64,000 nt of DNA from Acarospora socialis (lineage: Eukaryota > Ascomycota > Lecanoromycetes > Acarosporales > Acarosporaceae). The position numbers were made by a program, and so were the translations under genes. The stretch lies in NCBI GenBank assembly GCA_025617375.2, contig JAMYGW020000002.1, positions 186,001-250,000 on the forward strand. The letters run 5' to 3'. The notes beneath the pieces are model-generated. The model saw only the letters and a program-made list of their open reading frames with translations. It made no database searches and had not been told where the DNA came from. Shown in pieces: positions 23,555-46,294 of this stretch (position 1 is the first letter of the stretch; every line of letters starts with the position of its first letter).

Positions 23555-24031
23555 ACATAGCTATGAAATGAATCTCTAGAACGAAAAACCGCTGTGCTAA
23601 CCGCAAGCTGTACTTCGATCCGCTACATCTTTAAAACTGCGCCGGCTGTCGTAGCTCAGTGTTGAGGCCCACGGAATTATACCGCATAACCCATCCAAGC
23701 TCCCGGCAGATCTCCTATCCGCTCCACCTACTACAATCTTTCAAAGCTATTAACAGGCCTAAGGAGAAGCGGTCTTTCGACTGGCTATGAATTCTCAATG
23801 CGCAGTCGAGGAAGTTGCTAAGCTTCACGAAGGGAATGATTTGAGCATTGAAAAAACACCTCAAGGAAAGCTGAGGTAAACATGATATTCATGATTATCT
23901 AATCCATCATGAGGAGCTCAGAATAATTCAGTTCATATGTTTGTACCATCGCATATGATATTTACGTATGCATTCCTAAGAAACAATGTCACACACGCTC
24001 TTGCACATGTAATTCTCTCGTTCGTCACTCC
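23555..24031. other. Intergenic stretch
   Basis: Between qutC and the oxidoreductase. No motif or RNA gene is recognised. Confidence 0.4.
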
Positions 24032-25090
24032 ATGTCCACAAAGATAAAAATCGCAGTCATCGGCGGCGGCCACATCGGTCCCCGTCACGCCGCCTGCGTC
24101 CTGAAGTCTCCCGAAAGCACCCTCATCGCGCTCGTGGACCCAGCTCCGCACGGGGCCCAGCTCGCGGCCGACCTCAACACCAACCACTACCCATCCGTCA
24201 CCACCCTCCTCGCCTCCCCGCACAAACCCCACGCCGCCATCATCTGCACGCCCAACCACACGCACGTCGCCGTCGCCACCGAGCTCGTCCACAGCGGCGT
24301 GCACGTCCTCGTCGAGAAACCCCTGAGCACGGACATCTCCAGCGGCGTCGACTTAATCGCGCACGCCCGCCACGCCGGCGTCAAGCTCCTCGTCGGCCAC
24401 CACCGCCGCTTCAACCCCTACGTCGTCGCCACCAAGCACGCCATCACCTCGGGTCTCCTGGGCGAGATCACCGCCATCAACGGCCTCTGAACGACCTTCA
24501 AACCGGCCTCGTACTTTGACGCCCCCACGGACTGGCGGCGCGGCCCCACCGGCGGCGTCGTCCTCATCAACCTCGTCCACGAAATCGACCTCCTGCACCA
24601 CCTCCTCGGCCCCATCGTGCGCGTGCATGCCGAGCAGACCCTGTCCCGCCGCAAGCACGCCGCGGAGGAAGGCGCGGCGCTGACCTTCCGCTTTGCGTCC
24701 AGCGCCGTCGGCTCCTTCCTCGTGTCCGACAGCACGCCGAGTCCGTGGAACTTCGAGGCCGGCACGGGCGAGAACCCGACTATTCCGAGGACGGGGGAGA
24801 GTTTCTATCGGATCTTGGGGACCGAGGCGGCGTTGAGCGTGCCGGATATGACGGTTTGGTCGTATGGGGAGGAGAAGAGCTGGGTGGAGCGGCTGCAGCG
24901 GAGGAAAATGGATGTGGTAGATGCGGTGCCGTTTGAATTGCAGTTGGCGCATTTCGTGAGGGTGGTGAGGGGTGAGGAGGAGCCGGCTTGTGGTGGGGAG
25001 GCGGGGTTGCGGGCATTGGTCGTTTGTGAGGCGGTGAGGAGGGCGTTGAGGACGGGGGAGACGGTGGAGGTGAGGGGGTCGAAGTTGTAG
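24032..25090 (+). pseudogene. Gfo/Idh/MocA oxidoreductase with an in-frame TGA
   Basis: NAD(P)-dependent sugar/cyclitol dehydrogenase family. The N-terminal Rossmann half (IAVIGGGHIGPRHA, CTPNHTH, VHVLVEKPLS) and the C-terminal half (TTFKPASYFDAP, GGVVLINLVHEIDLL) lie in the same frame across 353 codons. They are separated by one TGA (24488-24490) where the family usually has Trp (NGLW-TTYKP). No GT...AG intron can remove it. The rest of the frame is uninterrupted and GC-rich at third positions, so the lesion looks recent, or could be a sequencing error or a polymorphism. The context (TGA followed by ACG) is not the known fungal readthrough context TGA-CTA. It lies directly downstream of qutC; a role in cyclitol or quinate-like substrate oxidation is only a guess. 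Confidence 0.75.
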
Positions 25091-25276
25091 GTGGACTGGG
25101 ATCGGAGGACGATGATTAGCTCTTCTTGGTCGCATCGATTTTGCGGAGCAGTAGATGCTAGACAAATCAAGAAGACCGAGAGATCGATCACGGTCATCAG
25201 GTGCATCATGGAATGACAGTCGAGATCCAAATTCCAGTCCTGGTGTATTTGCACTCTGACAGATGTCGTATACCCT

Positions 25277-26689
25277 TCAATCACTCCGCCAAACACCATC
25301 TTCGTGAATCCCCTCTACCACCAATCCATCATGCATCTTCTCATCCCCATACCACCCCCTTAACCTCGCCACGTACTCCCCCAGCAACCCCACTGCAACC
25401 GTCCCGCCGGTGAACCAACAGCCTCTCGTAAACCACCACCAACAATCCCTAACGTCCCCCAACCGCACCCTCCAAACCATCCACCCCAACGTCCCCGCCG
25501 CACCCCCACAGCTCCCCAGAAAGAATACCGGCCCCGCCCCGACCGCCGCCCCCGCCGCGCCCAACAACCCCACCTGCACGACCGCCAGGCCCGTGAGCAC
25601 GCGCTTCGTATGTTTCTCATGCCTTAACGCAATGCTCTTAATCCCCGCGCCGGCGTCATCGCGAATGTCCATATGCGCGTAGATCATATCGTACAGCACC
25701 GTCCACGAGACGCAGCTGGCGTAAAGGCTCGCGGCGGCTAGGGCCAAATGCGCGTTTTCGGGCGCGAGGAGATCGATGCCGAGGGCGGGAAAGCCCATGA
25801 AGGCGCCCCACGAGAAAGTCAGGCCGAGGACGAACTGCGGATAGTGAGTGACGCGTTTGGCGAGGGGGTAGGTGGCGACGAGGGCGAGGGAGGGGACGGC
25901 GTAGGGGAGACATTGGGGCGGGAATTGCAGCAGGACGACGAGGCCGGTGAGGAGCTGCGCGCCGGTGAAGAGCAGGGCGTTGGTCGGGGTTATGGCGCGG
26001 CGGGCGAGGGGGCGGAGACGTGTGCGCGTGACGTGCGGGTCTAAGTTGCGGTCCCAGAGGTCGTTGATGGTGCAGCCGGCGCCGCGCATGATGAGGGCGC
26101 CGGTTAGGAAGAGGAGGGTGGTCGTGAGGAGGGGGGTGGGTGGGGTGATGGTTGGGCTGGTGTAGGGAGCTGCGAGGAGGGTCGAGAAGAGGCAGGGGAA
26201 GAAGAGGTAGTAGGTTCCTGTTGGTTTGTCGAGGCGGATCAGTTCGGCGTAGGGGACCCAGGAGGCGGGGAGGTGGGAGAGGAGGCCGGTTGTTGGGGGC
26301 GTGTAGGGTGGATTCTGGGTTGTTAGTGAGTCTAGTGGCGGTTGATCTGTTGGCGGTGTTGACGGTTGGGGTTGATGGTGTGCTTGGTAGGATGATGAGT
26401 GCTTATGAAGGACGTGTGCTGGTACTGGCCGCGCCTGATATATGGGGCTCTGCCTAAGTTCGCACCTTGAGTACGCTTGGATTAACCCTCTCGATGGCGT
26501 CTTGCCTCGGGTTCTCGTAAGATGTATGTAACGAGTAGTGGTGGGTCGTATCAAATGGGGGTATTGTCGTCGCTGGAGGCTGACTACCCGAAGCCGTCGT
26601 CTACTGACGTACTTCAGTCCCAGGCTCTCTGGAAGAGAGCTGACGGTCGGACCGCATATTTGCGGGGCTCTCAGGCAGTAAGATAACAT
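25277..26689 (-). CDS. COQ2: 4-Hydroxybenzoate polyprenyltransferase, mitochondrial
   Basis: UbiA-family integral membrane enzyme that joins the polyprenyl tail to 4-hydroxybenzoate in ubiquinone synthesis at the inner mitochondrial membrane. Single exon, 470 aa. A long Arg/Ser/Thr/Pro-rich N-terminus (about 1-145) is consistent with a mitochondrial presequence. Active-site motifs: LIRLDKPTGTYYLFFPC, GAGCTINDLWDRNLDPHVTRT (NDxxDxxxD) and YDMIYAHMDIRDD (second Asp motif), with eight or nine hydrophobic helices. The third-position GC content is very high. It converges on the oxidoreductase pseudogene. Housekeeping gene, not obviously tied to the quinate cluster. Confidence 0.94.
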   Translation of the reverse strand: MLSYCLRAPQICGPTVSSLPESLGLKYVSRRRLRVVSLQRRQYPHLIRPTTTRYIHLTRTRGKTPSRGLIQAYSRCELRQSPIYQARPVPAHVLHKHSSSYQAHHQPQPSTPPTDQPPLDSLTTQNPPYTPPTTGLLSHLPASWVPYAELIRLDKPTGTYYLFFPCLFSTLLAAPYTSPTITPPTPLLTTTLLFLTGALIMRGAGCTINDLWDRNLDPHVTRTRLRPLARRAITPTNALLFTGAQLLTGLVVLLQFPPQCLPYAVPSLALVATYPLAKRVTHYPQFVLGLTFSWGAFMGFPALGIDLLAPENAHLALAAASLYASCVSWTVLYDMIYAHMDIRDDAGAGIKSIALRHEKHTKRVLTGLAVVQVGLLGAAGAAVGAGPVFFLGSCGGAAGTLGWMVWRVRLGDVRDCWWWFTRGCWFTGGTVAVGLLGEYVARLRGWYGDEKMHDGLVVEGIHEDGVWRSD

Positions 26690-27571
26690 GTTGATGTGCA
26701 GCTAGGCCTATAGGAAGACATTACTATATACTATGTCACACCCGTGAAGAAGGATTGCCTTACCTTAGTCTTGTTATGATGCACTCAATTGACTAACTTG
26801 AGATGAAAGAGATGTCCAGCAGTATAGCAGAAAGCTATTGGGGATGAGAAGAAGCTATGTGAGGACGCAGGCTACGGCTATCCATGCCTGCCGGGAGCTT
26901 GATGGAAAGGCGTAGAGCAGAGAGGTCAGTTTGTAGATGTATGAAGAAAGCTGTAATCTAAATTAGCATCTACCATATCCTGACCTATCCTTGTCCGCCT
27001 TCAAAGATGCCTTGACAAAAAGCGTTCTCTCCACAAGGGTACTTGCCAGCAAAGGTAATGACAGGAATGACAAAATGCAAAACATACAACAGCGGGTATT
27101 CGCTGATCGTCACCGACCCAACTACTAATCCGCCGATCTAAGGCTTATGTATGGCAGAGCGGACTGGATGCCCAGTATTCCTTGGTCTGTGGTCGTATGT
27201 ACTTGAATGTACTTAATATTTTGGTTCGTATTGCGAAAATATTAGAGAGATACTAAGATCAAAAATATCCCCGACTATTTAGACTCTCGATGGGCGATTC
27301 AGTCACGAAACCCAACTAGGTACTTCACTCGCTGCACTGATCAAGGATCAGACAGCTGTAGGGTGATGAATCTATTGATTAATGCTCAAAACTCATATGA
27401 AGCTTGAGGCTAACAACAAGCAGCATCGACTTCTCCTCGTTTTTGGATACCATGGAGGCAAGTAGCGAGTCCAAACCTTTGATACCCAACCACCTGTGAC
27501 TCAATACTCGCTGCCGTTATGCCGGCCATAGCTGTAATCAACCGAAGTGGCCTCCCCCGGTCCCCAGCACC
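26690..27571. other. Intergenic stretch
   Basis: Upstream of COQ2. No gene, tRNA or repeat is recognised by eye. Confidence 0.4.
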
Positions 27572-28839: not shown

Positions 28840-29537
28840 TCAGATGCTGGTAACTCCAGGCGCCCAAGCATTCCCAATCGTCTTTACCTTCGCAATGAAA
28901 ATACGGCTTGTGATCTCGCTCGACGTGGGCTCACGTCCTATGACCATTGCCATGGGCGTGTGGTCATCTGGAGTATGAAAAGGATTCTGTAGAAGGCGGA
29001 TGTACGCAGTCTGGAGTGCTCGAAATGCCTATGTAATGTTCAGTAAACCAACTTCAATGCACATACTTAGGCATTGAAACCAGCCGACCAGCATGAAGAG
29101 CAGACGGCAGTGAACGTACAGGTTTCAAATCACTATCTCTCAACCCAACGACTGGCGGCAGCTTTCCCCGCTCCCCTTCTTGAGGGGCAGGTCTACCGGC
29201 CATATCAACAATGATGACAAACTTCACCCCGGTAGTAGTCAACCAGCCGTACATTGCCAGCCTTTCGTCGATAGCTTGCAATAAGCCTAAGTCCTGGTCG
29301 ATTGTTTTGTTATGCTCCCGGATGTCGAAGATATCAAGGCAGGAGTTGAGCATGAAAGAGAACTCAAGCTTGGAGTTCATGTGCGGCGGAAAAAGAGCTA
29401 TGTGCAGCGGATTGTCCTATTGATAGTCAGTCAGCGAATCTCAGTAAGCTGTTAAGGGACAGTCCTGCGGTCGTCGTGACTCAGGAATATACATGTTTGC
29501 CAATGATGCCAATGCAAGCTATCGAAGGGGTAGCCAT
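28840..29537 (-). CDS. Sedlin/TRAPPC2L-like TRAPP complex subunit
   Basis: Longin-fold subunit of the TRAPP vesicle-tethering complex acting at the Golgi. Exons 29537-29493, 29416-29120 and 29028-28840 (introns 76 and 91 nt) give 176 aa with agreeing phases. The joins produce IGIIGKH|DNPLHIALFPP and GLRDSDLKP|AFRALQTAYIRLLQNPF, which are Sedlin-family sequence. SFMLNSCLDIFDIRE and the YGWLTTTGVKFVIIVDM strand also fit. It sits only about 260 bp from the sharp edge of an AT-rich repeat block, yet it appears intact. Confidence 0.85.
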
Positions 29538-29794
29538 CTTGCCGCCGTTTGAATATGCTTGTTGAAAGGCACAGTATTTGCTCTCAAAGGGCCCAGTCAC
29601 CTCTATAAAGTAAGAAATGAATAACCTGATCGATGATCTAGAATTTGTTCCGATTGATTGATTGATTGATTCATAGGTGACCGAGGCTGCCTAGCGCTGC
29701 CATACACCACATGACTATGTAACAAAGATTAGTGCATTATGCACTATGTACCTGTCATGAAAAGACCCCACATTCTAACAGCCCCCTGCAGCCT

Positions 29795-32700
29795 CTATAC
29801 TCTAATCACTCTCTGCTGTCTGAGTTCTTCATTAGAATCTGTGTCTGCATCTTTCAATGTTCTAATCTCTGTCAAGTTCAAAGCTAATATCTTTCTTGAA
29901 CTGTCATTCTAGAGAATAAACATCACTGTAAACAATTAATTGTCTTTTCTACAGTTAATAATTGACAGTTCTTGAATTCTCTGTTTCAAAATTCTCTGAT
30001 GACTTTTCTGAATTCTGTAGATCTTCTGAAATCTTCATTACATTCTGAAATTGTCTCAAAAGATTGTCTTGTAACATCAAAATAATGATCAATTTGACTA
30101 ATGCTGAATTCTTAAGAATCTTTCAGACATCATTGATTCATTTCAGAAGCTTCTTGTGAAGATTCTGAATTTATGAGCACTCAATAAGAACATGTTGTAC
30201 TGTCTGAATGTTCTGTGAGTATAAGCATTGAGAAAAGTTCTGTCTTTGAATTTTGTGTAGATAGTAAGTAAACTTTATCTTCTCTATTTGTAGTTGTGTG
30301 ATCAGTGAGCTCAGAGAACATCATATGCTGTTGTGTTTGACAAGAATCTTGAAGTTGAACTTCTTTTTTGAAAGAAAAGTTGCTCACTCTGAGATTCTGT
30401 TTTCTCATTTGTCAACTCATTGTTTGATAACTTGATGACAAAAACTCTGCTTACACATGATTAAGAAATGATAAATCTTTCAGAAGTAAACTCTAGTTTC
30501 TTTGACAGCAGTTTTGACAGTCTTGTCTGTCTTCTTATTCTCTGAAATTTTCACATGAACTAAAATTCAGTGAATCTGCATTCATATTTCAACATTCTGT
30601 AGCTGATCAATGTCTTAAATTACATCTCAAAGCAGATACTGCTTCAACTGATGTTTCAGATTGACAGAGACTTGAATGATTATCTGATTGTCAATATAGA
30701 CATTGATTATTCACAAATCTCAGTTCTGAAACTCTTTGATCTTCAGAGTGAAACTCATGATCATGACTAAATTCTGAAGCTCTGTCTCAAAGACTGTTAT
30801 TATGTATTTTATGTTTATGTAGCACAGTTTTTTTTGTCAAAGTTCAGAAATCATCACTGATGTTTTTATCTGACTACTAATGATGTTGTTATTTATAAAG
30901 ATATTGAGCACTTTGTTGTTTCTGCACAGAGTGTTGATGTTGTGAACTTGAATAATGTTGTTGACAAAGAAGACAATGTGTATGTTCAGAGAAATTCATC
31001 ATGAAGAAATCACATACAAATATTTGATTTTAAGTTTGATTTCTGCTTTCAGCAGTCAGCAATTTTGTTTTTCTCTGCTTTATGATTTATTCAATGAAAA
31101 TTCAAAACTTCAATATTTACTTTCATCTAAATCTTAAACTCATCATAATATTATAATGTATTAAGAAGATCAGAATATGAACAACAGCATCTTCAGTGAT
31201 CTTTTTCAGCTGCTGCTTCATGAGTAAAAGATTAAGCTTCATGTTTAGAACTGAATCTGTTATTGTGTGAAATGCTTCAACTATAATGATCTCAGTGTGT
31301 CACTGAATGCTGATGAGCTTTCAAAGAATGTACTCTCATTACATGATCATTTTGTGAACTTTATCTGTCACATATCAAGTAAAGCAGCAGTAAATGATCT
31401 GAGAAATGATCACTAAAATATACAGTCTTTGCAAGTTTCTGAAATTGAATTTTCAGATGAAGTCTGCAATGATAGTCAGTTCTTTCAGACTTATTGTCAT
31501 CTTCAACTCAATATGTCAAACATGAACTTCAAACTTCAGCTGTAAATTCAGAATGATGTATAGAACTCAGCAGATTTTTATAAAAGAAATTTTGTGAGAT
31601 TTTAGAATCAGCATGATGAAGATGTTGTGATTGTTGAGTTTGTTGATGAAGTGAATAAACTTGTATTTGATGAAAACAAAAATCAAAATATATCTGTATG
31701 CTCAAATCTCTGTTTTTGTGTGCAGAGTCTGCAGTATCTGATAATTTGTCTTTGTGAAGATGTTTGACATTATGAAGTCAATATCATCAATTCAGCTTGC
31801 TGTCACTGTTCAAAGATCATTTTTATTGTTAATGTCAAGTAAATCTGTATTGTAGAAGAGATAGAGAATAAATGATAGCAATAATTTCTGTAAAATGTTA
31901 ATGTGTATGCTGAAGAACTCAGACTCAAACTCTGAAAGCTTAAATATTGAGATTTGTCTCTGCAGAAAATTATCTATTTAATTAATCAGTGCTGATGAAA
32001 TTCACTGCTTTCTTAGATTGTGTAGCAGTTTTTGATGTGATATGTTGTCAAAAATCTCAAAGACATCAAGCATGAAAAGTGAAATCATCAGCATATCAGA
32101 GTTTCATACTTTCTGAATAACTTTCATGAGAATGTGAATTGTGTATTTTGTCAACATTTTCTTTCTTTCATCAAGCAGAATCTTAAGTAGTAACTGATAA
32201 ATCTTCATCATTCAACTCATTCTTCTAACTATTACTAACTTCAATATCTTCTTAAGCATGTTTAGAAGTGTCATCAGTCTGTAAATCTTTGTCATTCTGT
32301 AGTTTTTCTTATTTGACTTTTGAAAAGTAATTATAATAAAGCATTTGAACACTTTCAGATGTGTTTCATCATAAAAATATCAATTATATAGTGACAGAAG
32401 TAGCAAAAGAATCTGAGATAGTGTAAAATGAAAAATACAGTTCAGTATGCTGTTCAGATCAGAGATTTTGTTGTTTAATATTTGAAGAATGATGTTGCTG
32501 AGTTTATGTTTCATGATTGATGACATTGATATTGACTTTGAATACTGATAATTTTCTGTGTTGTTAAGATTTGCTGTGAAGAAAATCAAAAAGAAAATGA
32601 TTTGTAGCAGTTCTGTCTTGTCACTAAATTTCAGAGTCAGAGTTTCATCAAAACATTATAGAACTAAAATGAAAGTTTGACTTTCTGCTTCTCTATTTCT

Positions 32701-35690
32701 CACTTATTTTGTTAGTTTTCAGAGATCTTTTGAGTCTGTAAATGCTGTCTTCATTCATTCTTGATGAGTTTGTCACATCAGCTTTAATAACTTCTTTCTT
32801 TTCTTGTTGCAGATCTCATAATAATTAATTCATGTTTTCTCTGTCTGTTCTTTCTGTTATTTTCTTCAAACTTTATTTATCTTTCAAATGACTTTCTTGA
32901 TTGCTGAATCAAAGTCTGATTTTAATTACTTACTGAAACAGATCATCAAAACTGCTTTCTGAATGATGTGCTGTAGAATCTTCATAATGACTTTTATTTG
33001 CTGCTTTGTTGTCTCAAAAGTTGTAATTGTAAACTGAGTGATGAAAGTCTTTCAAAAGATCTTTGCATCAATCTTATCTCATTGCTGTCTTATTTAAGAA
33101 GTGACTTTCAGTGTTTTGAGAAACAGTGTTGTCAGAATTGAGTAGTGATCTAAGTTATGATTCTTCTTTATCATCTTACAGCTCATCAGTCTTTGTGTCA
33201 TCATCAATATACTCAGAGACAAATTAATTGTGTTTTAAAGCTCATCAACTCTTCAAATAATGAATTTCTGAGAAAGCAGAAAAAATAGTTGCTGCTTATT
33301 TATAACAGTAAGCAGCTACTTCATCTCTTTGTCTTTCTTGATGTTTAGATCATCTTATGTTGAGTGATGTAAATTGAAATTTTTCATCATTAAATACTGT
33401 CTCTTCAGATTCTTCTTCAACAGACTGTTGAGTAGATTAAGTGACTCTGTGATGTCTTTTTAAACTGTTTTACAATAAATGTTATGAATATGTAAATGTT
33501 TCAGTTCATTGTTCTCTATATAGCATAGATTCAGAGTGATCAGATTTTTGAAGTGCTTCTTGAAGATTCACTGTGTTTTGTTTAAATATGTGTTCACAAA
33601 GAAACAGACTTTAATGAATTTTAATTCTGAATCTTGATGAATAGAATAAATTAAGTGAAAGTGATCTCTGCAGAAATAATAAGTGTTGATGCTGAAAAGA
33701 TTTTTTCAGAACTTTTGAATTGCTAGAATGTTGTATTTTTATGTTTGTGAGTTTCAAAGCATGAAGATCATGATCTTGTCACATAATTTCATGATGTTGT
33801 ACTGTAAAATTGTCAGAATTTAATGTTCTGACATTAAATACTGATGAATATAACAGTGTCTGTAATTACAGAACTTTTAAACTTCAGAATCATACTATTC
33901 TCAGATGTCTCAGAATAAGTTTTGAAGATGATGAAAATAATAACAGTGATAGATGTGACAGCAGAGCTCATTGAAGTGAGAATAAATGTCAATTTCATCA
34001 TGCTGAACATCTTTCAGATATCAGTCAATCTTGCTGTTTTTTTTTTCACTTCTATGTTGTGTTGCTTCAGAAACTTTGTAATGATGTATTTACTTCTTTT
34101 GTTGTTGATAGTGAAGCTTAAAAATGTATAATTAATGATTATCTTCATAAATGATGCAGAACATTTTTCATTGATGTTCAGAGTCAATTTTGACTTCAGT
34201 ATAAATAGAATGAACATTTTTTTCAAAGTTTTTATCACTGAAGTCTTGAAAAATGCACTTGCTTCATTCTGAGTGCTTTTTTGATTCTAAGAACTTTCTC
34301 TGTTTTAAGTGAGACAAAAATCATTAAGAACAATATTGAATTATGATGTGTCTGATGCTGATGTGAAGATCAGAAAATGTGTGTAAACTTTGAAATTTGA
34401 AACTCTTCAGTGAATTCACTTAATGCTGCATGATCATCTACACTTGCATCATCTCTTTCTGATAGTTAAAACACTTATTGTTACAAATTTTATGTGAGTC
34501 TCTGCAGCTTGTGCACTTCTGTTTTCTTAGATTTTTAAAGAAATAATTCTTGAATTTATATCTCTCAGCACAGTTGCTGCATTTTTGCTGCTCATTGCAT
34601 TAAACATTTATATAATTATATTTATGACATCAGAAGCACTTCTGAATTCAGTAAACTTTATTGTATAGTTCTGTCTTTTTATATTTGAAATTTCAGATCA
34701 GATCTGTCTGTAGAGTCAAATTGATCTGCTCAGTATTCAGAAATTTTATGATTATAGAGTCTGCAGTGCATTTTGAGAAACATAATCAGCTGATGTACTC
34801 AATTAAGATGTTGATACTGATCTTGTGATTTTTGATCTGAATATGAACTATGATTTGCTTCTGATTGTTTATTTTGATGTTGATTGTGAAAATTTTGTAA
34901 ACTATGACATCATAAATTGTTGTCATCATCTTACAGATTTCAAAGACACAGACTTAATTAAGACTAATCTGCAAAATCTTTTTTTCAGTTATTGTCTGAA
35001 TATAGATTGTCAGATCTTCAGATTTTAGTTACTTGATGACAGTTACATGCAGAATTGCAATGTTTTGATCAACAGATATGTATATATGACTGATGACTCA
35101 GTTGTGTAAGATTCTGAAAGTAAAAATATGATAGTGATCAATGAGAATGAAATTCAGTTTGACAATAATTCTGCAATTATTAAGACTGAAAAGATCAATG
35201 ATAGTGTTCTGAGTGCTCTGAGTCACAAATGTGAATGAAAAAGAAACTGTTGATGAAGAAAAAGATGTCTGAACAGTTATCTGAATTTAAAGATGCATGT
35301 TTCTGTATCTAATGATGATCAAGAATGACAAGATTGAGTTTCTATTGACAGAGACTTTCAGTAAGTTTTTTATTATGATGATGTTCTGTTTCACTATGTT
35401 CATCTGTTGAATCAGAACTTTCAGATTCACAACAATTTAAACTGTATCAGACTGATTCAGAATTCTTTCTATTAGCTTTTTCATCAACAGAATAAAGAAT
35501 TCAATATAGAATCATTGAATGATCTTCTTGAACTTGTCATCATCACTTTTGTCTGTGACAAAAGTGTGAAGTTTCAATGCTTTGTGTTTGATCTGGGTGG
35601 CATGCTTGAGTAAGAAGATGAATTTCACATCAATCTTTGATCATACAGCTTCAGACATCACATCTTATCTCAGATGATATATCAGAAGAT
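29795..35690. repeat. AT-rich block 1, decayed repeat DNA lacking CpC/CpG
   Basis: The boundary is abrupt: GC-containing host sequence ends near 29795 and resumes near 35690. Inside, C is followed by A or T but almost never by C or G, and G is almost never preceded by G or C. In the 600 bases I checked letter by letter (30001-30300 and 31801-32100) there was no CC, GG or CG at all. CpA, TpG, TpC and GpA remain abundant. No host gene is visible. The content I can identify is a LINE on the minus strand. Confidence 0.85.
31140..34600 (-). mobile_element. Decayed Tad1-like LINE (non-LTR retrotransposon)
   Basis: Read on the minus strand, the block contains the parts of a Tad1-clade LINE in the right order. 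ORF1 zinc-knuckle-like Cys residues (KCTSCRDSHK region) lie near 34440-34600. An endonuclease DFNLHH box lies near 33375. Reverse transcriptase N-terminal fingers lie at 32380-32590. Then come IYRLMTLLNMLKKILE-like sequence, LLMLDVFEIFDNISHQKLLHNLRK, ILYLFYNT and a degraded IDDID box (normally FxDD) near 31770. The post-RT segment (MKLNLLLMKQQLKKI) is near 31250. Many stops and frame changes make it non-functional. The element probably extends across most of 29.8-35.6 kb, but I cannot fix its termini. Pro and Gly positions of the family are uniformly replaced. Confidence 0.85.
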
Positions 35691-35699
35691 AGAGGGCAA

Positions 35700-36008
35700 C
35701 GAGCTGAGTTACTGGCTTGAATTTGGGCTTAATGTGAGCTGTTTTGGTGGAGTTATTTCAAAAATTTGGTTTGAGCTGTTTGAGGTGTTTTTTCCTAGAA
35801 ATTGTTCCGGGAGCTGAGACGGGTTCGGGGCAAAGCAGCGAAATACGATTGCGGTTAGGGTTGCTCCACCAATGATGAAATCGGGAATAAGCGCCGCTAG
35901 CCAATAGATGATATCGACATCACCGCTCTCATCTCCATTTGCCCCACGATACAAACCATTCCACTCCTTCCTACCCGCCCGCTCCCATCCAATTTACTTC
36001 TTTATACA
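35700..36008. other. Boundary to gene island, 5' flank of complex I gene
   Basis: Host-like composition returns here. The complex I gene starts about 320 bp from the edge of the AT block, so its promoter must fit in this stretch. Confidence 0.5.
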
Positions 36009-36895
36009 ATGTTTTCAACTGCAAGATCAACAGCAGCGCTCGCACTGCGAGGTACGCTCAATCGCCACCGCATGATTCGCTACCCAATATGCTAACCGCG
36101 CTTCTCCAACAGCCAAACCATCAACAGCACTCCTCCCTCTCCGCGCCGGTCCTTCCGCCTTCATATCCTCGTCATCACCAAAACCAGCAACAGCGCTCAC
36201 TCCACAGCGAGATGGCGAAGGTCCGCCGCTCAGCGTCACCGGCAAGCCGCGGCGAGAGGTGCCGTTACCGAGTCAAGAGAAGAAGGAGGGGGCGATGCAA
36301 TTCGCGCTGTACGTCTTCCCCTCCAACACAGCAATTACGCACGTCGCTCGGAACCCAAACTGTCTCAACTAACCAACCTGACTTCAGAACAACGATGGAC
36401 CAAATCGCCAACTGGGCCCGTCAAAGCTCCCTCTGGCCCATGACCTTTGGGCTGGCCTGCTGCGCCGTCGAGATGATGCATCTCTCCACCCCACGCTACG
36501 ACCAAGACCGCCTGGGCATAATCTTCCGCGCCTCGCCGCGGCAATCGGACGTTATGATCGTGGCGGGCACGTTGACGAACAAGATGGCGCCGGCGTTGAG
36601 GCAGGTTTACGATCAGATGCCGGATCCGAGATGGGTGATTTCGATGGGCAGCTGTGCGAATGGAGGGGGTTATTATCATTACAGCTACTCGGTTGTGAGA
36701 GGGTGCGATAGGATTGTGCCGGTGGATATCTACGTGCCTGGGTGTAAGTATTGCAACGGCTGATTTGTGGAAGGAGACTTGCTGATCGTGATTTGTGCAG
36801 GCCCACCGACGGCGGAGGCGTTGATGTATGGCATCTTTCAGCTGCAGAAAAAGATGAGACATTCAAAGATCACGCGGATGTGGTACAGGAAGTAG
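36009..36895 (+). CDS. NADH:ubiquinone oxidoreductase PSST subunit (NDUFS7/nuo-19.3 type)
   Basis: Core mitochondrial complex I subunit carrying iron-sulphur cluster N2, which passes electrons to ubiquinone. Exons 36009-36051, 36113-36308, 36388-36743 and 36801-36895 fit all phases (introns 61, 79 and 57 nt) and give 229 aa. A Ser/Ala/Arg-rich presequence ([15 protein letters not shown]) is followed by [33 protein letters not shown]. Cluster ligands are visible as the tandem Cys-Cys of LACCAVEMM, the Cys of [10 protein letters not shown] and the Cys of VPGCPPTAE. It ends [12 protein letters not shown] normally essential gene between two transposon graveyards. Confidence 0.95.
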
Positions 36896-37330
36896 AAAAT
36901 GACAACGGAAAGTGTATAGGGGTCCCAGTTTGGGTCGTGCGGAACAAAGCATGTGTACAGCTCAGTGCATTCAGCATTCGAAGGTTTTCCGGCGTCTTCT
37001 TTCCATCGGTTTTATTGAAAAATGCATCACGTTCATCACAGAACTACAGGCTGCACACGCTTTCTCTCGTACTGTACAATGTGTCCACCGTGACCCAGCC
37101 CTTCTGGCCACGGGTATATTGCATACCCCCACTAATCAAATACTAGTCTCTGCACCTACGCCGTTTGTTCCACGGCCGTAGCTGTGCCTATGATAGACAA
37201 TGCTCACTGGTCATCGCGCATTCAAACCACCCAACGAACCAATCCCAAGTTTCCAGTTCACCAAATTCTGAACCGCAAACAAGACCCATCTCTTTCGCAA
37301 GCCCCCCTCTTCAGACCCAAACCGCATACT
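36896..37330. other. Intergenic stretch
   Basis: 3' flanks of two convergent genes. Nothing is recognised. Long plus-strand frames over 37184-38215 are shadows of the minus-strand gene. Confidence 0.4.
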
Positions 37331-37870
37331 TCAAACCGGTTTCCCGGCCCTCTCGCAGACCTTACACGCCCTCCTCGGCCCCACCAATTCCTTCTTCACC
37401 CCCTCCCAAAACTCCCCACCCACCTTCGACTCATCACAGCCATCCAGAACCACAACCTCCTTCAAACCCCTCAATGCCCTGAATGCTTTAACACCAGCGA
37501 ACTGGTCCACCCATCGCTCGGGATAAACCTTCAAATACGTCAACCGGATGCACTGCCCCAACTTCTTGAACGCAGCGGTGGCGTGCGTCGAGCGCCGGCC
37601 CCAATAATTCAACGTGACGTGTGTGATTTGCCGGCGTCGAGGGATCGAGATGCTTCGGAGGAAATTGTAAAGTGCCTGCGGGTCGTCGAGAACGAAGCGG
37701 TTGTTACGGTAGTAGACGGGCAGAGCTTCGTTGTGGATCTGCTTGCAGACGCCGAGGAGCGTGAGGCGGTTGGGGGTGGCGGAAGGTTTGGGCTGCACCG
37801 GTTGGGAGGCGGGGACGAGGAGGTTGCTGTAGATCATGTTGCGGATTTCGGGAGGAAGGCGGAGGAACAT
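37331..37870 (-). CDS. 2EXR/F-box-like domain protein
   Basis: 179-aa protein starting MFLRLPPEIRNMIYSNLLV, the opening of fungal 2EXR/F-box-like proteins. It is followed by LTLLGVCKQIHNEALPVYYRNNRFVL, which is equally typical. The C-terminus ends in a Cys-containing tail (ACKVCERAGK). This domain class is common in Pezizomycotina and of unknown function, perhaps in protein turnover. Short for the family, so a 5' or 3' exon may be missing. Confidence 0.75.
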   Translation of the reverse strand: MFLRLPPEIRNMIYSNLLVPASQPVQPKPSATPNRLTLLGVCKQIHNEALPVYYRNNRFVLDDPQALYNFLRSISIPRRRQITHVTLNYWGRRSTHATAAFKKLGQCIRLTYLKVYPERWVDQFAGVKAFRALRGLKEVVVLDGCDESKVGGEFWEGVKKELVGPRRACKVCERAGKPV

Positions 37871-38383
37871 GTTTGCGTGTGCGGAGTGGAGGATTATAGG
37901 ACACGTGTTGGTGTTGGGTTGTTGGGTAGGAGAATGCGGGCTTTTGACTTGAAGTCGAAGGGGTCATGTTTCAAGTCTTGGAGGGCAGGCATGAGCACGG
38001 AGCTTCTGGAAGGAATCGGAAAACAACATGTTGGCTTTCTCGAAGAAGTGACTCGCTGCTGGATGTTGGTTTCATTCTTCGGTACAACGGAGTGTCGTCT
38101 ATCGTTTGGTCAACCGACGACTTACACCCGCGATGAGTGGATTGAAATCTACCTATATCAGTTCGTGACATCGGTCGGTGAGACCAAGCCTGCTGTCGGT
38201 CCTGATGGAAGCTAGATCGGTGTTGGCGCCAACGTGGCGCAGTTCTGGATTCGCCTGGCTGAGAGGTCTCTGTGTCCGAGACCTGGGGGAGTTCGTCGCT
38301 GATGCTTCGGCGAGAGTAGTAAAAGAACTTGAGATTGATCGTTCCATGTTTATATCACGGAGAGGTCGAACAGCCGTTCCTGT
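37871..38383. other. Intergenic stretch downstream of the broken cyclase
   Basis: This is where the class I half of the diterpene cyclase would lie if the gene were full length. I find no DDxxD-type or other terpene-synthase sequence here. Confidence 0.4.
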
Positions 38384-40421
38384 TTAATGCTCTCCACCTT
38401 GAGCTCCAGTCGAAGCCGTAACCCCAGCGCCACACCACAAACACTTGGGCCAGAAGACAGCTACGTTCGCGCTATGGCAAATCCCAAATAGATGATCGCT
38501 GTTGATCAGGCTTTCAATTTCTGTCAAAAATTTGTGATGTGTGCTGCATAGCTCTTCAACCACACGTCCGAGCGAGGGTTTATCCGTTGAAACGTAAAGC
38601 ACCGCAATCATGTAGGCTTCTGAAAGGTTTGTAGATCTATAGGTGACTTTTTCAATCCACAGATACTCAGGTCTGCAAGTCATCTGCTTTCTGAGAAACG
38701 ATCGGCCCCGATCTATTGCAGATAGGATATTTGGGCGGAAAAAATGAGCCAACGGTAATACCAACAAGCTGACAAGCGTGAGAATTGCATAAGCTGTTTC
38801 TTCTCTCGGCCCTTTACTACCCCATGAGCCGTTGATAGGCTGAGACTGTAGGGTGCGAACCAGACATTGGAAGAGCGTAGGCATGACCTTTTCTTGCAAT
38901 AGCAGGCGAGGAAGTTGTGGGAATCTGCTACCGTCCCACGCTCGGAGCAACTCAATCATAGATTGGGCCATCAGCATTGCTGGGTAATACTGCGACAGAT
39001 TCTGGCCGAGCATTGCCATAACGTCAGCCCTGGAGATATGAAATAAAGGCCAGGCACGGATCAATCATACTCATTTATCATGCAGTGAACCACTGGCGCT
39101 CCACCAACTTTCACAAACAAAACTGACAACTTTTTCGATTGCCGCATTCTTCGATAGATATTCTTCTGAATCTAGAATAATACTTAGAAGAGCGTTGCAG
39201 TTGGCACTGACGCTTGGATTTCTCTCGGCGCTATATGTTTTCAGACATTTTGAGGAATCAAAGTGTCCAACAATGCAGCTAGTAAAGCCTGGTCTTCCGA
39301 ACAAGCTAAATACAATGGATGATTTGGCGCTATCATCTAGATTGGCCTCAATACCTGGAGCTTAGCTTTGTGCCTCCGGACTTTGAAGGTAGCTCACCAA
39401 AGCCGACAAGGCCTCCTCCTTCCATCCTAGATTCTTCGAGCGCTTTCAAGGTTTTACCGTTCCGAGCCACATCTGATTCGTGAGTTCATAGTCCAGCCTC
39501 CAGTAGCGTGGAAACAACCTGAAAAATTGGAATAAGCCAAAGATCTGGTACATTTAGGAGAACTGGTATACCGATGTCAACGCTAGTGGATGGATAAGCA
39601 CTTGGCACGCCGCCCGAGCCTTTCCCGTCTCCATTTGAAATGACCAAGCGAAGGTACGTTTCCGCCTCGTCGTCCCATTTGATGGATCGAATTAAGTAGG
39701 ACGCAGTCGCTGAAGGTGACGCCATCATGCTCTTGCAAACCTTTTGGTGAGCGATTCGGTCAAACAAGAAATCTTTGTCCATGAAATGCTTCCAGAGAGT
39801 GCAGAAGCGTGGAAGGTGCGGTACTGTAAAGCAACTCAGGTTGCAGTTTTGCAAGCTTTTGGTTACGTATCTGAAGTAAATGCTCCTTGTCTGAGAAGGT
39901 GAAGTGAATGCCCTCCTCCTTGAGCAAGTCCAAAAGTGAAGGGGCTAGGGCTTTAAATCCCACTGCCTTACAGTCACTAACTCGCCAGGCCTTAAGCAAC
40001 TCAGAGAGACGCGCAAACCGCTTTCTCTACTTGTTAAGAGATGTTCCGTGTGAAGATGTCTCAACTGAAATGGATTTTTAACATGTTGAGTCAAGCAGAA
40101 CAAGGCGGCCATTATTGAGAGAATGCCATCAACCTCACTCAGGTCATCATCACCTGGATGTGCAGGGCACCCCCGGTTTGGCAATTGTGCATCCAGGACA
40201 AAAGAGAAAACCGATGGAAACAGTCATTGTGGATGATCAGGGACGGTTCTAGAGACGCAGGCAGCCCAGGCGGTATCATAGACACTGCGGGTCATCGACC
40301 CAAGGCCGTGCGCTGGATCGTAGGTGCCGAGCAGGGTACTCAAAAGCGTCCTCACGCGCTCTTGTGATTCAAGCTCTACCATAATTCTATATTGAAAGGG
40401 AGTACTTTCTTGCCTTGCCAA
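38384..40421 (-). pseudogene. Broken fungal CPS/KS-type diterpene cyclase
   Basis: Remnant of a gibberellin-type ent-copalyl diphosphate/ent-kaurene synthase that cyclises geranylgeranyl diphosphate. Readable in order: GSMTRSVYDTAW (near 40290), LFPSVFSFVLDAQ (40190), VDGILSIMAALFCL (40100), VGFKALAPSLLDLLKEEGI (39930), TLLHSLEAF (39810), MASPSATASYLIRS (39720), a class II Asp box reading EANLDDSAKS (39330; family DxDD) and NLSQYYPAMLMAQ, REETAYAILTLVSLL and LSEAYMIAVLY (39010-38600). At least three in-frame TGA codons fall at likely Trp sites (ends 40224, 39486 and 39071), and there is a frame change near 39810. The match ends just inside the class I domain, so the kaurene-synthase half is gone. 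Lesions are few, so decay looks recent. An intact P450 lies nearby. Confidence 0.85.
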
Positions 40422-40581
40422 TAGTACGCATGCTCATTGAGTGTTCTAGAGAGACACAAAATTGAACGGCTTTAATGAACGTCAATGAAAGCTTGAGAGC
40501 ACTGGAATTGCACAGCCTCCTCCAACCATCAACGAAAGTATCTGCCTTGTGAAGCCGCAACGCCTTGAGCACATGTAGCAT

Positions 40582-42229
40582 GATTGGCCAGCAACCGTGC
40601 CACGTGCGGTAGATCTGATGTTGTACGGAAGAGCGGGATGCAGTTGCATCACCGACAGGGTCCTGAACACCTTGAGAGTAAGTGTATGTATGAATCTAGT
40701 CTCAACTTCACACACACAGTGAACTATGCCGACTCTAAGCGCTCACTCTCAGAGTTACTAGAGTGTAAAAGCGAGCTTAACGTCATGAGCTGATCCACAG
40801 CGCATGACTGCATAAGGTCTGTGTCGCCTAGGGTTTGTCACGCATGTCGAAAATGGTACGGTTGGACAAGTAGTCGCCTTGCAGCTGGCAAAGTCGAGGC
40901 AAGGTCGAGGCAAAGTTGAGCCAAGGAGAACTCCGAGAGGACCACCGTGATATAGGGTTTTGTTTCAGACTTCAGCTGAGATGTGCATCAACGGCATATT
41001 ACCAGGTACCAGGTAGTATTGATAATGTGGTTGCGAACGGGCAATAGTCTGGCGCTAGTCAATCACTACTCCATATGGCCAGACTTCCACGACTGCATGA
41101 GCGATGTGGTTCGTTCAGAAGCTTGTACATCCCGGCGATCTTTCGGACCTTGAACCTACTCTGTTGGTCAATGATATATTAGTACTGTTAAGCCGTATTA
41201 ATACATCGAGTGATTTTTCCAACCTAGGTACAGGGTCAGGATAGAGCGGGTGGGATAGCCGCATAACTATGTATGAGAAAATCTTCTAAAGTAGCCCTGT
41301 AAAAACTCCGCTCTCATACAAAATCTATCAGTGTCGGCCTGGACTTGGTCTTAACTAGTGGTATTTTAATATGCAGCTATCCACCCGCAGTGTCCTGCCC
41401 TGTACCTACCTATGTACTACCTTACCAGTCTTCCAAAGTTTGCTGCTTGAGATCAGGCTGATCTCAAGGAGCGTCGCTTATCATATATAAGGTAATGACT
41501 AGCATTAGCGCTTCCGCTGCTTCTAACTCCGCAGAGAGGTAGAGGACATCAAATGACCAACCAACCAGTAGAGAGATACTATCAACGCCGTACTCATACT
41601 TAGATACTGCGCCAACCTGACTCCCCGGCATGGGGCGGTACAAACAAGCACACCAAAAGGGTGTTCGTCTTTCACGGAACACGGGGAGAAAAAACTCAGG
41701 CCACGTTGCCAATGTTTGGCTAGTAAGCCGGACATACATACAGCCATTCTATTATGCTTTTGAAGCCTCTTCCTCTACATCTCTAACTTCTCTAGCATCA
41801 TTTCGTTACTTCCTCGTTACATTCTTTCTCAGGGCTATCACTGCTAGGGACAGAAGCATGGGTTATCACCTTTGGGGTTTGTCTGACCTTCGAAGAGCGG
41901 GGCTATGCAGAACGGAAGCAGAGCAACGAATTTCATTGAGCCGGGGCACGCGGATCTTCAAAATGTACATTGTAAGGCACTCCCATACCAGGAACAGCCT
42001 CGGAAGGTAGATCTTCGGCCGCACTCCTGCAGGGACTTCTGCTCAACGTGGGGGGAGGGCTGGCAGGCAACAATACGAATACAGTGCAACCACAGCCACG
42101 ACGATCCTACCGTCTCTTCTCAATCGATGGTAGATCAACATCTGCTTTTGAAGGCCTAGGTTTAGATAGGCAGACAGTTGGCGATCAACTTTGGTACTTA
42201 CTGACTTGCCAAGCCGTAGCAAGGTGAGC
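40582..42229. other. Intergenic stretch, 1.6 kb
   Basis: No gene with recognisable motifs on either strand. Host-like composition is moderately AT-enriched near 41160-41400. It may hold further decayed cluster genes that I cannot identify. Confidence 0.4.
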
Positions 42230-42720
42230 CCGCTGATCTTGTTATAGCTCACTGAGTATTGCCGGCTACAAGCAGGCATCATCTTGGGGTCCATGCGAAC
42301 GTCTACCAGGCAGTATCAAAGTAGACAAATGGAAATCCAAGGCTCTACAGCTTGGGCGGGACAACACTTTGCCAGTGCTACACCCCAGATTCTAGTCACG
42401 ACGAGGCGCAGCTCCACCCACGCAAGAGGTCGTCCCAGGCAACTGTGGAATTTTACACCGAAAGGCTTGCTAGCAGAAAGGTGATCGGTGCCATACTCTG
42501 TGAGACACTCGCCCTTAGGCAGCGAGCGCTTGGGGACGAAGCGGTCCGGGTTCGAGAATAACTTGCCACAGCAATTGACGGCGAAGGTACGGACTCCCAA
42601 CCTGGTCTGCAGGGTTGTCAGCTTCGATGACGGCTGATTGCCAGTGCTTGATCACTCCTCCTGGGAGATATACTCCAGCATAAGCATCACCACCTTTGGG
42701 GAAATAGTGGTTTTAGGTTA
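42230..42720 (-). pseudogene. C-terminal fragment of a second cytochrome P450
   Basis: The minus strand reads KLFSNPDRFVPKR, then LSASKPFGVKFHSCLGRPLAWVELRL. This is the PERF-like segment and haem-binding loop (F-G-x-x-x-x-x-C-L-G-R) of a fungal P450 of a different subfamily from its neighbour. An upstream piece (DAYAGVYLPGGVIKHW) is in another frame, and no I-helix or K-helix is found before the next gene, so only about the last quarter survives. Probably a relic of the same diterpenoid cluster. Confidence 0.7.
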
Positions 42721-42937
42721 AGATCTAGGTCAGATGAATAAAATACGAAAAGTAACATATATCACACTTAAAGTATCAATTTTTCAGTTCTGGATAATTT
42801 AAAATTTGTCACTTAGGTTCTTTCTGTTTCTATAGAGTTTTGAAGATAATCATGTCCTGCTTTGTTAAGAATCCACATAAGAGCAGCCGAATTTGCCCTA
42901 ATCCCTTTCAGGCGGGCCATCCACCCATGTATACCTC

Positions 42938-45260
42938 TCAGCGGGCCGCCTGATCGCTCTTGCCATCACCACTGACTGCGCGCTTCCGCACTAGAATCTT
43001 CATGAACGGACTCGGCAGCCTTGTCTTGCCAAATGTCAGGAATGGCCGCGCTGTCGGGTCGGCAAGTTTGAATTCATAGTTGACAATGAGATGCGAGAGG
43101 ATCATTTTCATGACAACAGATACGTAGAAGCGCGCAGGGCTATTTATTCGTAGTTCGTATTAGTTAGTACGGTGATATAGTAAGCAGGGTATGAGCGAGC
43201 TATACAGCATTTACGCTACACCTAGCTCTTCTTGAAATAACGGTGGCATGGATGGGGAGAGCCATTATGACGGAGCCTAAGCAAAAGCAAGGGGCAAACT
43301 CACCAAGCATGCCGGATTGATCCCCAGAACGGGAACTCGTGACTCGGATGAGTGAGTCGAGACTCTGATGTGCCATCCTTTTCATTGACGAAACGAAACC
43401 CTTCGAAGGACAAGGCGCGCGGCCAAATGCTCTCATCGCGCATGAGCGAGAGTTGTGGTATGGCGAGCCAATTGTTGGTTGGGATGTGGTAGCCATCAGG
43501 GGCGGTATATGGAGCCATGACTGTGCGAGGAGCGCTGACTTTGTTGAGTGACTTTGCGTCAGTATACGACATCAGAATCCCCCCCTTTCGATCTCTTCTC
43601 TCATGCGGAAGAATGGCTGGCTTACGAATTGGACCAGGACTCAGGCGCGCTGTCTCTTTCACGAAGCTGTCAAGATAAGGCATCTCCTGATTCAACGAAC
43701 CGACGGACGCGTCTTTACACTCCTCAGCTTCAGCTCTGAGTTTCTCATGGTATTCTGGGTGCTTGCAGAAGCTGTAGATACAGAACTGCGCAACCTAGGC
43801 TGGAGTGTCAGTCTTGAGCGGTGGATCGTGGAAGTCTGTCATACCATGGGGACCTGAAATGCACTCGCGAACAGAAGACCAAGCGTAACTTTGGCGACTG
43901 CAGCGGCGTCTTGAAGCCTGGCCATCTCGGCTGTCCATTGAGTGATATGGCCCTGCGCCTGCTGATGTGTTTGTCAGTTCTATTGCTGCTTCAAGACAGG
44001 AAACCTCACTGACCAGCTTTCTATCGCTTGAATCCTCACTTTCTAAGGTTTGGCAGGTAAGCCACAGCAGAAGGCTATAAACCCTGTGTCGGGTTACACC
44101 CCAACCCATCGCTATGGGACCGATGAGTCTGTAACGCCCATGAGCTTAATGAAACACCGCCGTTGGCTGATTCAAAGGATCACTGACGGCAGGAGAAAGC
44201 CCGGCATGAGATTCAGAATGGGGAAAGCTTTTGCACAGCTCCAGAAGAAGCTCATGACGTCCTGGTAGACTTCGAGGCGGTCGGCTGCGGTGGAGAATCC
44301 GATGTCAGTCCCGTGTTGCGCAAGAAAAGGGATGTCGACAGTGCCATACCTTGGTCCTCGCCAATGAAGGCCAAGAGATTCACACGAGTGAAGATGCGTA
44401 GGAGCGCTGGCATGAGCCGGACCGTTTGCCAGTCACCATGGTCTTGTTCGCATTTGTCTAGTCATGAAGGCTCGTTGGTCAATCCGAGCGACTGTGATAG
44501 GCAAGGTCTCTTCTCCATACACACATACCGTTCAGAGGTGCCACCTCTAAAGCCACTGCCTCCCTAATACGCATCCGAAAGGCATCGCTCATTGCGGGAA
44601 CATTGGACCGAAGCTTATTCTTCAGCACACCAACCATGACGCGAAATGCCTCACTTTTGGGTCCTTTGTGCTCGGGCGGTACTTGAAGATGGCCCAAGAT
44701 TGGCTCCGTGAATGCAAGCTGTGACGCTTTAGCATGGTTCCCATATTACCGTAAAAAGGCTGGACGGGGCTTGTGGCTATACTTCGTGCAGCGCCTCTTC
44801 CATCGACAGCACGGACTCAGGTTCACATTCCAGCTGTTTGAGCTGATTACGGTCCGATACAAAGACAATCCAGCGGTCGGTCATCGGAATTGCGAAAGGC
44901 TTCCCATTAGACTATGCATATCAGAGGTCTGCTCGCAAAGATGTCGGAATTTCTTGTGCATACCGAGTCATATGCCTTTTGGAGAAGCGTTTCCGAATCG
45001 ACAATCATACGTAACGCTGTCAACCACCTACCCAACGGCGTTGGATACGCCGCGATGATGATGTTGGACTAGACACAGGGTCAGCGCAAGGATTGACGGT
45101 GCGATGTACGCGTTAATCATACTGGGGCCTTCCACCAGAATTTCCAGAAGACAGCCGCTGTTTGCCAGGCCAAAAGAGGGTAGACAATACAGTACCAATG
45201 CCAGTGCCAACCATGGGAGACAGTAACGAAGCTCAAGTTCGAGATCGATGGTAGCGCCAT
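42938..45260 (-). CDS. Cytochrome P450 monooxygenase, 11 exons
   Basis: ER-anchored haem-thiolate monooxygenase resembling P450s of fungal gibberellin-type clusters. The inferred exons are 45260-45123, 45068-44964, 44911-44783, 44718-44529, 44457-44350, 44284-44188, 44128-44014, 43961-43845, 43794-43626, 43538-43304 and 43139-42938. All phases agree, giving 534 aa. An N-terminal hydrophobic anchor (YCIVYPLLAWQTAAVFW) precedes KPFAIPMTDRWIVFVSD. The I-helix region is GLLFASAFQVPM, with K-helix ExxR as KETARL, FEGFRFVNEKD and a haem loop FWGSIRHACPARF. The usual GRxxCPGRF glycines are Ile and Ala here, a mild deviation. No lesion is seen, in contrast to the adjacent cyclase. Substrate unknown; an ent-kaurene-type diterpene oxidation is inferred from context. 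Confidence 0.88.
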
Positions 45261-45385
45261 GGATACCGCAGGAACAAAGTGCTCGCCAACGGATTTGGCG
45301 TACATGGCGGATGAGTTCATGCTGATATCTGGTCTTCCAGCCTGTACCGCCGAGGGCGGACATCCCAGTCCATATTTATGGACTC

Positions 45386-45758
45386 GTAGGTGGGCATGTC
45401 AACATCCAACTGATAGCCAGCCGCCACCAATTGCGGACCCAGTTTGCAACAGCTGAAAACCGATTTGAATAATTTATGAAGATCACAAGACTGAGACACG
45501 AAATGTTGTATGTTTAGTACATGGCTTTTTCCGGCACGGGGTCCATGTTTGGAAATGTGTATTGGACCCGTAAGTGAGCATGTCGACATCCGACTGATAG
45601 TCAGCCGCCACCAATTGCTGAACCAGTTTGCAAAAGCTCAGGGCTGATCTGGATAACCTGTGGGGACCACAAGGCTGGGAGACGGAGCATTACACGGAAC
45701 ATTATGTGTTCCTTTTTCCCCGGCATGGGGTCCAGGCTGGGAAATGTGCTTTGACGAA
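45386..45758. repeat. Diverged tandem duplication, two units of about 185 bp
   Basis: Unit 1 (about 45386-45568) and unit 2 (about 45569-45758) share GCATGTC(A/G)ACATCC(A/G)ACTGATAG, AGCCGCCACCAATTGC, CCAGTTTGCAA, CATGG near the end and GGAAATGTG, in the same order and orientation. Differences are mostly transitions. It lies upstream of the P450 gene. No coding function is recognised. Confidence 0.7.
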
Positions 45759-46294
45759 GAGGATTGGCTATTGGGGCCAGTGGTCCTTGCTCACATGCAG
45801 GCAATCTTCCGTGTCTATCTGCAAGTTGCAGTTTTATTTTCAGTTGCATGCATTACTCGTAGGTTGGATCTGTCGGCTAAGGTACTGTGTATACCTTACG
45901 CCCACCCAAGACCAACAGGCGCTAAGGTATCCAACCGAACTGCAGAGAGACTCTGCATTGCCCTGCGGTAGTGAACAATAATCTCACGCACCTCCGGAAG
46001 CCTAGTATTTCTTGGTCGAATGCCTGATGAGCGTCTTGCTGAGTATCGCTGCAACTGCTGAGGGGTGTGAGGGGTAGAATTTAACCCCCACTGGCCATCA
46101 GCTTACCATGAGCTGGCCAGACAGCCTCGGATTGATCCCTGCTCCTTCCACAGTGCAACCCACATGTATTGAGGTGATGCAAGGCGTGTGGAGGTGCAAC
46201 TCTTGATTGCGATGGGAAAGGTATTAAGTCGAGAAGTGGTCGCTCGTTGCGGAACTTGCTCTTGTCGTGCTATGACAGTTTGATCATTGTAATC
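45759..46294. other. Intergenic stretch
   Basis: 5' flank of the PTH11-like gene. Nothing else is recognised. Confidence 0.4.

Follow-up and report, generated by a model that had tools for sequence, protein, structure and literature searches.

We analysed a window of 64,000 nucleotides from the ascomycete Acarospora socialis (GenBank assembly GCA_025617375.2, contig JAMYGW020000002.1, positions 186,001 to 250,000, forward strand), which in the 31.1-Mb genome of 38 contigs, denoted C1, C2 and so on, corresponds to C2:186001-250000. The window carries two blocks of mutated repeats, A and B, in which the dinucleotides CC, GG and CG are extinct or nearly so, with unaffected DNA between them. We attribute their state, with a probability of about 0.8, to repeat-directed C-to-T mutation of the repeat-induced point mutation (RIP) type, in which the target preference of Neurospora crassa is roughly inverted. 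The parts of the window that bear on this are the following.

29606 to 29793: left margin of the block A repeat; CC, GG and CG are ordinary in the window and mutated in the copy on C1, a natural before/after pair.
29794 to 35594: core of block A, a mutated dispersed repeat without CC, GG or CG, delimited by dinucleotide counts, with copies on C1; C5, C21 and C26 match less well.
32202 to 32761, minus strand: part of block A that matches an unmutated relative on C26 at 63%; the open frame on C26 is like the reverse transcriptase of a long interspersed nuclear element (LINE).
35595 to 35793: right margin of block A; the C1 alignment runs to 35793, and CC, GG and CG are back in both copies.
36001 to 51000: unaffected DNA between the blocks, an internal control with 46.8-59.1% GC per kb bin and ordinary CG and CC/GG.
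51393 to 64000: block B, likewise made of mutated repeats, in which 4 CC/GG and 0 CG are left, recognised from counts and genome matches.

Between 29795 and 35690, CC and CG do not occur (0 each) and GG occurs 3 times, in all cases at the right margin (35595-35599), leaving a run from 29794 to 35594 that is free of the three pairs (bounded by 29792 and 35595). Relative to expectations from base composition (observed/expected, o/e), the same interval has an excess of CA (398, o/e 1.54), TG (587, 1.62), TC (486, 1.53) and GA (447, 1.51), accompanied by CT (424, 1.33), AG (349, 1.18) and TA (371, 0.52), and CpA therefore does not share the depletion of CpC and CpG. In the 12.6 kb of block B, 4 CC/GG are left and CG none. 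The bin statistics cover 257 full kb-bins, taken from the window and from further stretches of the genome, L014-L033, whose choice was guided by repeats and methyltransferase genes. Across the 94 bins with GC below 0.32 we observe 0 CG against 1,759 expected and 63 CC+GG against 3,575 expected, with CA/TG and TC/GA in excess, whereas the 142 bins with GC above 0.44 contain 7,460 CG (9,034 expected, 0.83) and 17,461 CC+GG (18,322 expected, 0.95). The remaining 21 bins, of intermediate GC, include half-mutated copies with some CC/GG left and were excluded from both sums. The extinction of the three pairs in AT-rich bins is beyond chance. An earlier note on this DNA had described it as lacking CC, GG and CG with plentiful CA, TG, TC, GA, CT and AG, which the counts over block A, block B and the 94 bins bear out and show to have been understated.

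Pieces of C1 align with block A (29606-35793) at about 80-81% identity, the copy there being interrupted by other mutated repeats. The alignment with C5 is weaker, and the unmutated relatives on C21 and C26 match at 59-69%. At the left margin the first 46 bases are poorly aligned to C1, the good alignment beginning only from about 29650. The part free of CC, GG and CG starts 188 bp inside the left end of the C1 alignment and ends 199 bp short of its right end. The left edge is sharp, with 10-16 CC/GG/CG pairs per 100 bp at 29201-29800 followed by 0 in two 100-bp bins, and at the right edge the counts pass from 0 to 3, 2, 8 and 25 pairs per 100 bp. For block B, the piece at 53001-54500 has at least 45 matches in the genome, query included (40 of the 44 candidates scored), and mutated repeats extend beyond the right end of the window (L032-L033), where they enclose a half-mutated copy of a long terminal repeat (LTR) retroelement. 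In both blocks and in the stretches read, mutation is confined to repeats and the neighbouring sequence is spared. The sharp edges that the earlier note had reported at both ends are thus confirmed by the per-100-bp pair counts, and its link to repeats by the copies on other contigs and by block ends that lie near the ends of repeat alignments.

Block A is probably a decayed old LINE, judging from the C26 open frame, which matches LINE-1 ORF2 chains in the PDB (E about 1e-4). A Pfam search through the C21 and C26 relatives gave no family for it, and a search for LTRs within block A returned merely two short, chance-like repeat pairs. The unmutated relatives lie on small contigs (C21, 60 kb; C26, 30 kb; stretches L022-L028), with 50-60% GC in the aligned parts, and these contigs could be an accessory, a poorly assembled or a foreign part of the genome.

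Next, we examined which cytosines change. Among 34 pairs of saturated copies, which are non-independent, transitions account for 13,871 of the 15,349 mismatches (90%), and among two-base differences CA/TG is the most frequent (957), a swap that arises because one CpG gives either product depending on the strand hit. A directed comparison is provided by L037, an LTR element on C14 with little mutation, which served as reference for the fully mutated copies L016-L018. C has become T at 932/1303 CC, 438/872 CG (counted per strand), 500/1485 CT and 458/1678 CA sites, and the CC rate is the highest in all 8 of the 8 copies compared with L037 (0.49-0.75). When block A is set against its C21/C26 relatives, the changed fractions are 0.75 of 479 at CC, 0.52 of 305 at CG, 0.37 of 384 at CT and 0.29 of 404 at CA. 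The CA and CT rates in both comparisons include ordinary divergence, because the references are relatives and not ancestors. The reference element itself (L037:415-6558) has 319-bp LTRs that are 99% identical and a normal CpG content (CG o/e 0.81), while mutation, complete or partial, has affected the relatives in L014-L021 and L032 that match it over long stretches.

Two closer comparisons agree in direction. In the edge strip at 29652-29795, set against the mutated C1 copy, 12/15 CC, 2/5 CG, 5/28 CA and 3/18 CT sites are changed, with 1/78 A/T sites differing (p-value 2e-5, CC versus CA+CT). In a set of four LINE copies that are 97.7-99.5% identical, the 41 C-to-T changes found in a single copy fall on 23/159 CC, 1/10 CG, 10/512 CA and 7/404 CT sites (Fisher test, p-value 1.3e-10, CC+CG versus CA+CT), with singletons of the reverse type numbering 11; at this identity of about 98%, the CpC rate is about 8 times that at CpA/CpT. 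CpC enrichment is therefore present in every one of the alignments, with L037, with the C21/C26 relatives, in the edge strip and among the LINE copies. Considering also the order of loss described below, the target order is CpG > CpC >> CpT ~ CpA. The rule proposed in the earlier note, C to T before C or G, holds in the directed comparisons, but not as an exclusive one, since CpA and CpT are hit as well, weakly.

An isolated CC gives TC rather than CT (105 versus 26 in the half-mutated copy, 75 versus 9 in block A), therefore it is the 3' neighbour of the C that decides. This bears on whether a single-strand DNA deaminase of AID/APOBEC type might edit element complementary DNA or exposed DNA at CC, the favourite of APOBEC3G, an idea that would suit the strand runs seen in L032. 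AID/APOBEC-type deaminases read the 5' neighbour, whereas here the first C of the pair changes and CpG is hit hardest. A Pfam search found no APOBEC_N match in the genome, although the control genomes are likewise matchless, which makes this result uninformative. Given the TC products, we disfavour such a deaminase and regard it as very improbable.

The near-identical LINE copies similarly weigh on passive decay, in which long-term methylation and deamination, together with AT-biased drift in silent chromatin, would act with no recognition of repeats. Both blocks are rich in AT and lack open frames of at least 150 amino acids, as such decay would have it. We nonetheless consider it unlikely by a wide measure, given that CC is nearly all lost while CA and CT are largely kept, that block edges lie near repeat ends on both sides, that the 8-fold CpC excess appears in copies still so alike, and that one copy shows strand runs.

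We then compared block A with simulated mutation of an unmutated element. Saturation of CpG and CpC gives GC 0.336, CA/TG 1.69, TC/GA 1.66 and TA 0.45, and the addition of 20% of CA/CT gives GC 0.267, CA/TG 1.55, TC/GA 1.52 and TA 0.66. The actual values of block A (GC 0.298, CA/TG 1.58, TC/GA 1.52, TA 0.52) lie between the two simulations or equal one of them. A CpA simulation, with CA/TG 0, TA 1.80 and CG 1.63, misses block A. The genome has at least 151 reverse-transcriptase matches (150 of the 435 candidates scored), and among the 150 matches listed the stop codons are TGA 418 times, TAA 60 times and TAG 21 times, 23 matches being stop-free. CGA and TGG targets would yield TGA, whereas classic RIP is said to create TAA and TAG, not TGA, in the accessible text of PMC3828140. 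The classic indices of block A are 0.56 for TA/AT and 1.72 for (CA+TG)/(AC+GT), and the RIP thresholds quoted in that text are >=0.89 and <=1.03, respectively (PMC3828140). Block A falls short of both, and the classic indices therefore score it as free of RIP and miss the mutation. A classic CpA-type RIP misread owing to AT-richness could draw on the dominance of transitions and on the presence of RID-like and DIM-2-like genes, but the CA excess and TA deficit of block A, the CpA simulation and the stop codons lead us to reject it, with next to no residual probability.

Upon examining copies at earlier stages, we find that CpG is lost well before CpC, as seen in L032, L021 and the LINE copies. 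The clearest case lies on C2 just outside the window.

L032:1499-7720, close beyond the right end of the window: LTR element, half mutated, inserted in repeats that are fully mutated; no CpG left, CC/GG kept in part.

In this copy CpG stands at 0 and 131 CC/GG are left in the 7 kb counted (CC+GG o/e 0.34); equal rates per C at CpG and CpC would predict about 11% CpG survival, and none is observed. In 94 of 136 cases neighbouring CpG sites share the strand that was hit (72 expected), a value reached in 0 of 2000 shuffles; one-strand runs within a copy are a RIP trait. Of its remaining CC, 55/76 on the plus strand and 16/55 on the other are preceded by A. A LINE at L034:1-4000 (C8:203501-207500), also present in L035 and L036, is open over 1,275 codons and has copies that are about 98% identical. 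In 3,602 bp of the open-frame element in L034 there are 5 CpG against 113 expected, CC/GG stands at o/e 0.81, 42 of the 46 arginine codons are AGA/AGG and 30 TGG are kept. The element seems to have shed its CpG with the frame still open.

CpG-only loss thus fits as a first stage in the LINE copies, whereas pure CpG decay of the DNMT5/Masc2 type is rejected, CpC being extinct or nearly so in old copies. The order of loss can also be read as two layers, in which CpG would be removed by methylation (DNMT5- or DIM-2-like) and deamination in all elements, live ones too, and CpC by a separate repeat-triggered mutator. The LINE copies with long open frames, at CG o/e 0.03-0.04 and CC+GG 0.78-0.81, suit this, as do the state of L032 and the presence of a DNMT5-like gene. 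A single enzyme faster on CpG than on CpC would yield the same order, however, and the kb-bin tables contain no bin in which CC/GG is lost but CG kept. We consider two layers rather unlikely, though well worth keeping in view.

Searching the genome for C5-methyltransferases yielded four matches, which lie at three places (C2, C3 and C8). The match on C3 is to PDB 9bap (E 4.7e-200), deposited as DNA cytosine-5 methyltransferase, which we take to be DIM-2, and that on C8 is to PDB 7r76 (E 6.5e-207), deposited as Rad8 and presumably DNMT5. On C2, the methyltransferase at C2:1420221 consists of two open frames, and the stretch between them begins like an intron (by the intron consensus). Its Pfam DNA_methylase match is confined to positions 2-160 and 253-324, and at E 0.001 neither the DIM-2-like nor the DNMT5-like chains match the protein. 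With the NCBIfam models, the methyltransferases match general C5-methyltransferase models and, weakly, helicase-type ones. A part of PF00145 is stated to be absent from all RID/Masc1-like proteins in the available portion of PMC4352252; the partial coverage at C2:1420221 fits this loss, and the protein looks RID-like, as judged by Pfam coverage. The genome accordingly appears to carry a RID-like (C2), a DIM-2-like (C3) and a DNMT5-like gene (C8), and the RID-like enzyme would be the first suspect as catalyst.

Elsewhere in the window, quinate-use-like genes lie at 887-23554, with proteins of dehydroquinase/shikimate type, a Zn-cluster regulator, a protein of shikimate-dehydrogenase type, a sugar transporter and one of AP-endonuclease-2 type. 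Genes of this kind, together with the methyltransferases, suit a filamentous ascomycete. HeLo-domain frames occur among them at 8925-11286. A GC peak of 61-65% at 24001-26000 overlaps the end of a UbiA-type prenyltransferase frame (25277-26689).

27081 to 27200, minus strand: 5S ribosomal RNA gene.

Returning to the repeats, RIP-type mutation of inverted preference probably proceeds as follows. The system picks out duplicated DNA, with traces of recent action, and cytosines followed by G or C are mutated on either strand, CpG fastest and then CpC, with CpT and CpA hit weakly. Old copies lack all or nearly all CG, CC and GG because the sites are consumed to exhaustion, and end at about 25-30% GC, rich in TC, GA, TG and CA. 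The trigger may be homology before meiosis as in Neurospora, and the catalyst would be a C5-methyltransferase, most likely the RID-like enzyme, its preference for the 3' neighbour being altered, possibly assisted at CpG by the DIM-2- or DNMT5-like one. Under a more specific version, which is tentative and has clearly less than even odds, the RID-like (or DIM-2-like) enzyme of this lineage would have exchanged a preference for 3' A for one for S (G or C). The outcome would be a self-standing CpS type of RIP that uses up its sites, goes unnoticed by CpA indices and has obliged surviving LINEs to shed CpG with the frame kept.

Several points weigh against this reading. We infer both the triggering by repeats and the identity of the enzyme, and the genome sample is non-random. 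L037 and the C21/C26 copies are non-ancestral relatives that were selected for being unmutated. In the LINE set, the 34 two-versus-two columns, whose direction is unknown, fall on CT 14, CC 12, CA 6 and CG 2 times, which is a weaker CC excess per site, and CpG there amounts to just 10 sites with 1 change. Since CpG is gone before CpC, there is room for two processes. Only one copy has clear strand runs, with L016 borderline (p-value 0.0115), and the neighbouring-CpG shuffle test finds none in L018, L017 and L014. Finally, intact or near-intact repeats such as L037 and the open LINE frames imply that the system is not fully effective.

Finally, we compared this pattern with known systems, as described in the accessible parts of the sources cited. 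RIP in Neurospora crassa, dependent on RID and DIM-2, is alike in its C-to-T/G-to-A changes within repeats, its sharp-edged AT-rich blocks and its RID-like and DIM-2-like genes, whereas its preference of CpA > CpT > CpG > CpC (PMC5496416) is nearly inverted here and the stops here are mostly TGA. In Trichoderma reesei, CpA ~ CpG are followed by CpT and then CpC (PMC5496416); CpG is a main target in both, but here CpC is second and CpA/CpT last. Basidiomycetes and Tuber share the change of CpG to TpG in transposons, ascribed to a Masc2-like or methylation-based process, with Tuber also having RID- and Dim2-like genes; the CpC signature is absent from that description, which in its accessible part does not use the term CpC (PMC4352252). 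In Zymoseptoria tritici a C5-methyltransferase, Dim2, likewise raises C-to-T mutation in transposons, but at CpA, with CG methylated and not highly mutated (PMC8016269). CpC loss is mentioned beside CpA loss in Stagonospora nodorum (PMC2621366), and a CpC double change in Monilinia (PMC8959702). The preference for CpG and CpC is not new as such, Coccidioides being one reported precedent, in which CpG and CpC are especially affected by repeat-induced mutation according to a statement in a review citing Neafsey et al. 2010 (PMC9409882), our source for this likeness. PDB matches of a pyrophosphatase and of a triosephosphate-isomerase-like protein gave a single hint on kinship with that genus: the latter protein shares about 45% identity, judged by eye, with chain 3s6d of C. 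immitis, which makes a different fungus probable, although the two may be paralogues. Beyond Coccidioides, the literature searched, to the extent accessible, gave no joint CpG and CpC preference (subscription papers, e.g. Clutterbuck 2011, lay outside its coverage). Apparently new, as far as we have seen, are the completeness of the loss, its order, the 3'-neighbour rule, the strand runs in one half-mutated copy and the open-frame LINE that is almost CpG-free.

These findings indicate that the CpA-based indices in common use for RIP call such blocks unmutated. In their accessible text, a survey of 1,239 fungal genomes reports a preference for CpA as common to RIP-like defences (PMC12543289) and a survey of 10 genomes ties RID to CpA/CpT (PMC4352252), and the genome of Acarospora socialis fits neither. 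With numbers as clean as these it is well suited as a test case. Should the rule be set by a single enzyme, a comparison between CpA and CpS species would indicate which residues select the base 3' of the mutated C, and the question of RID catalysis would thereby become testable.

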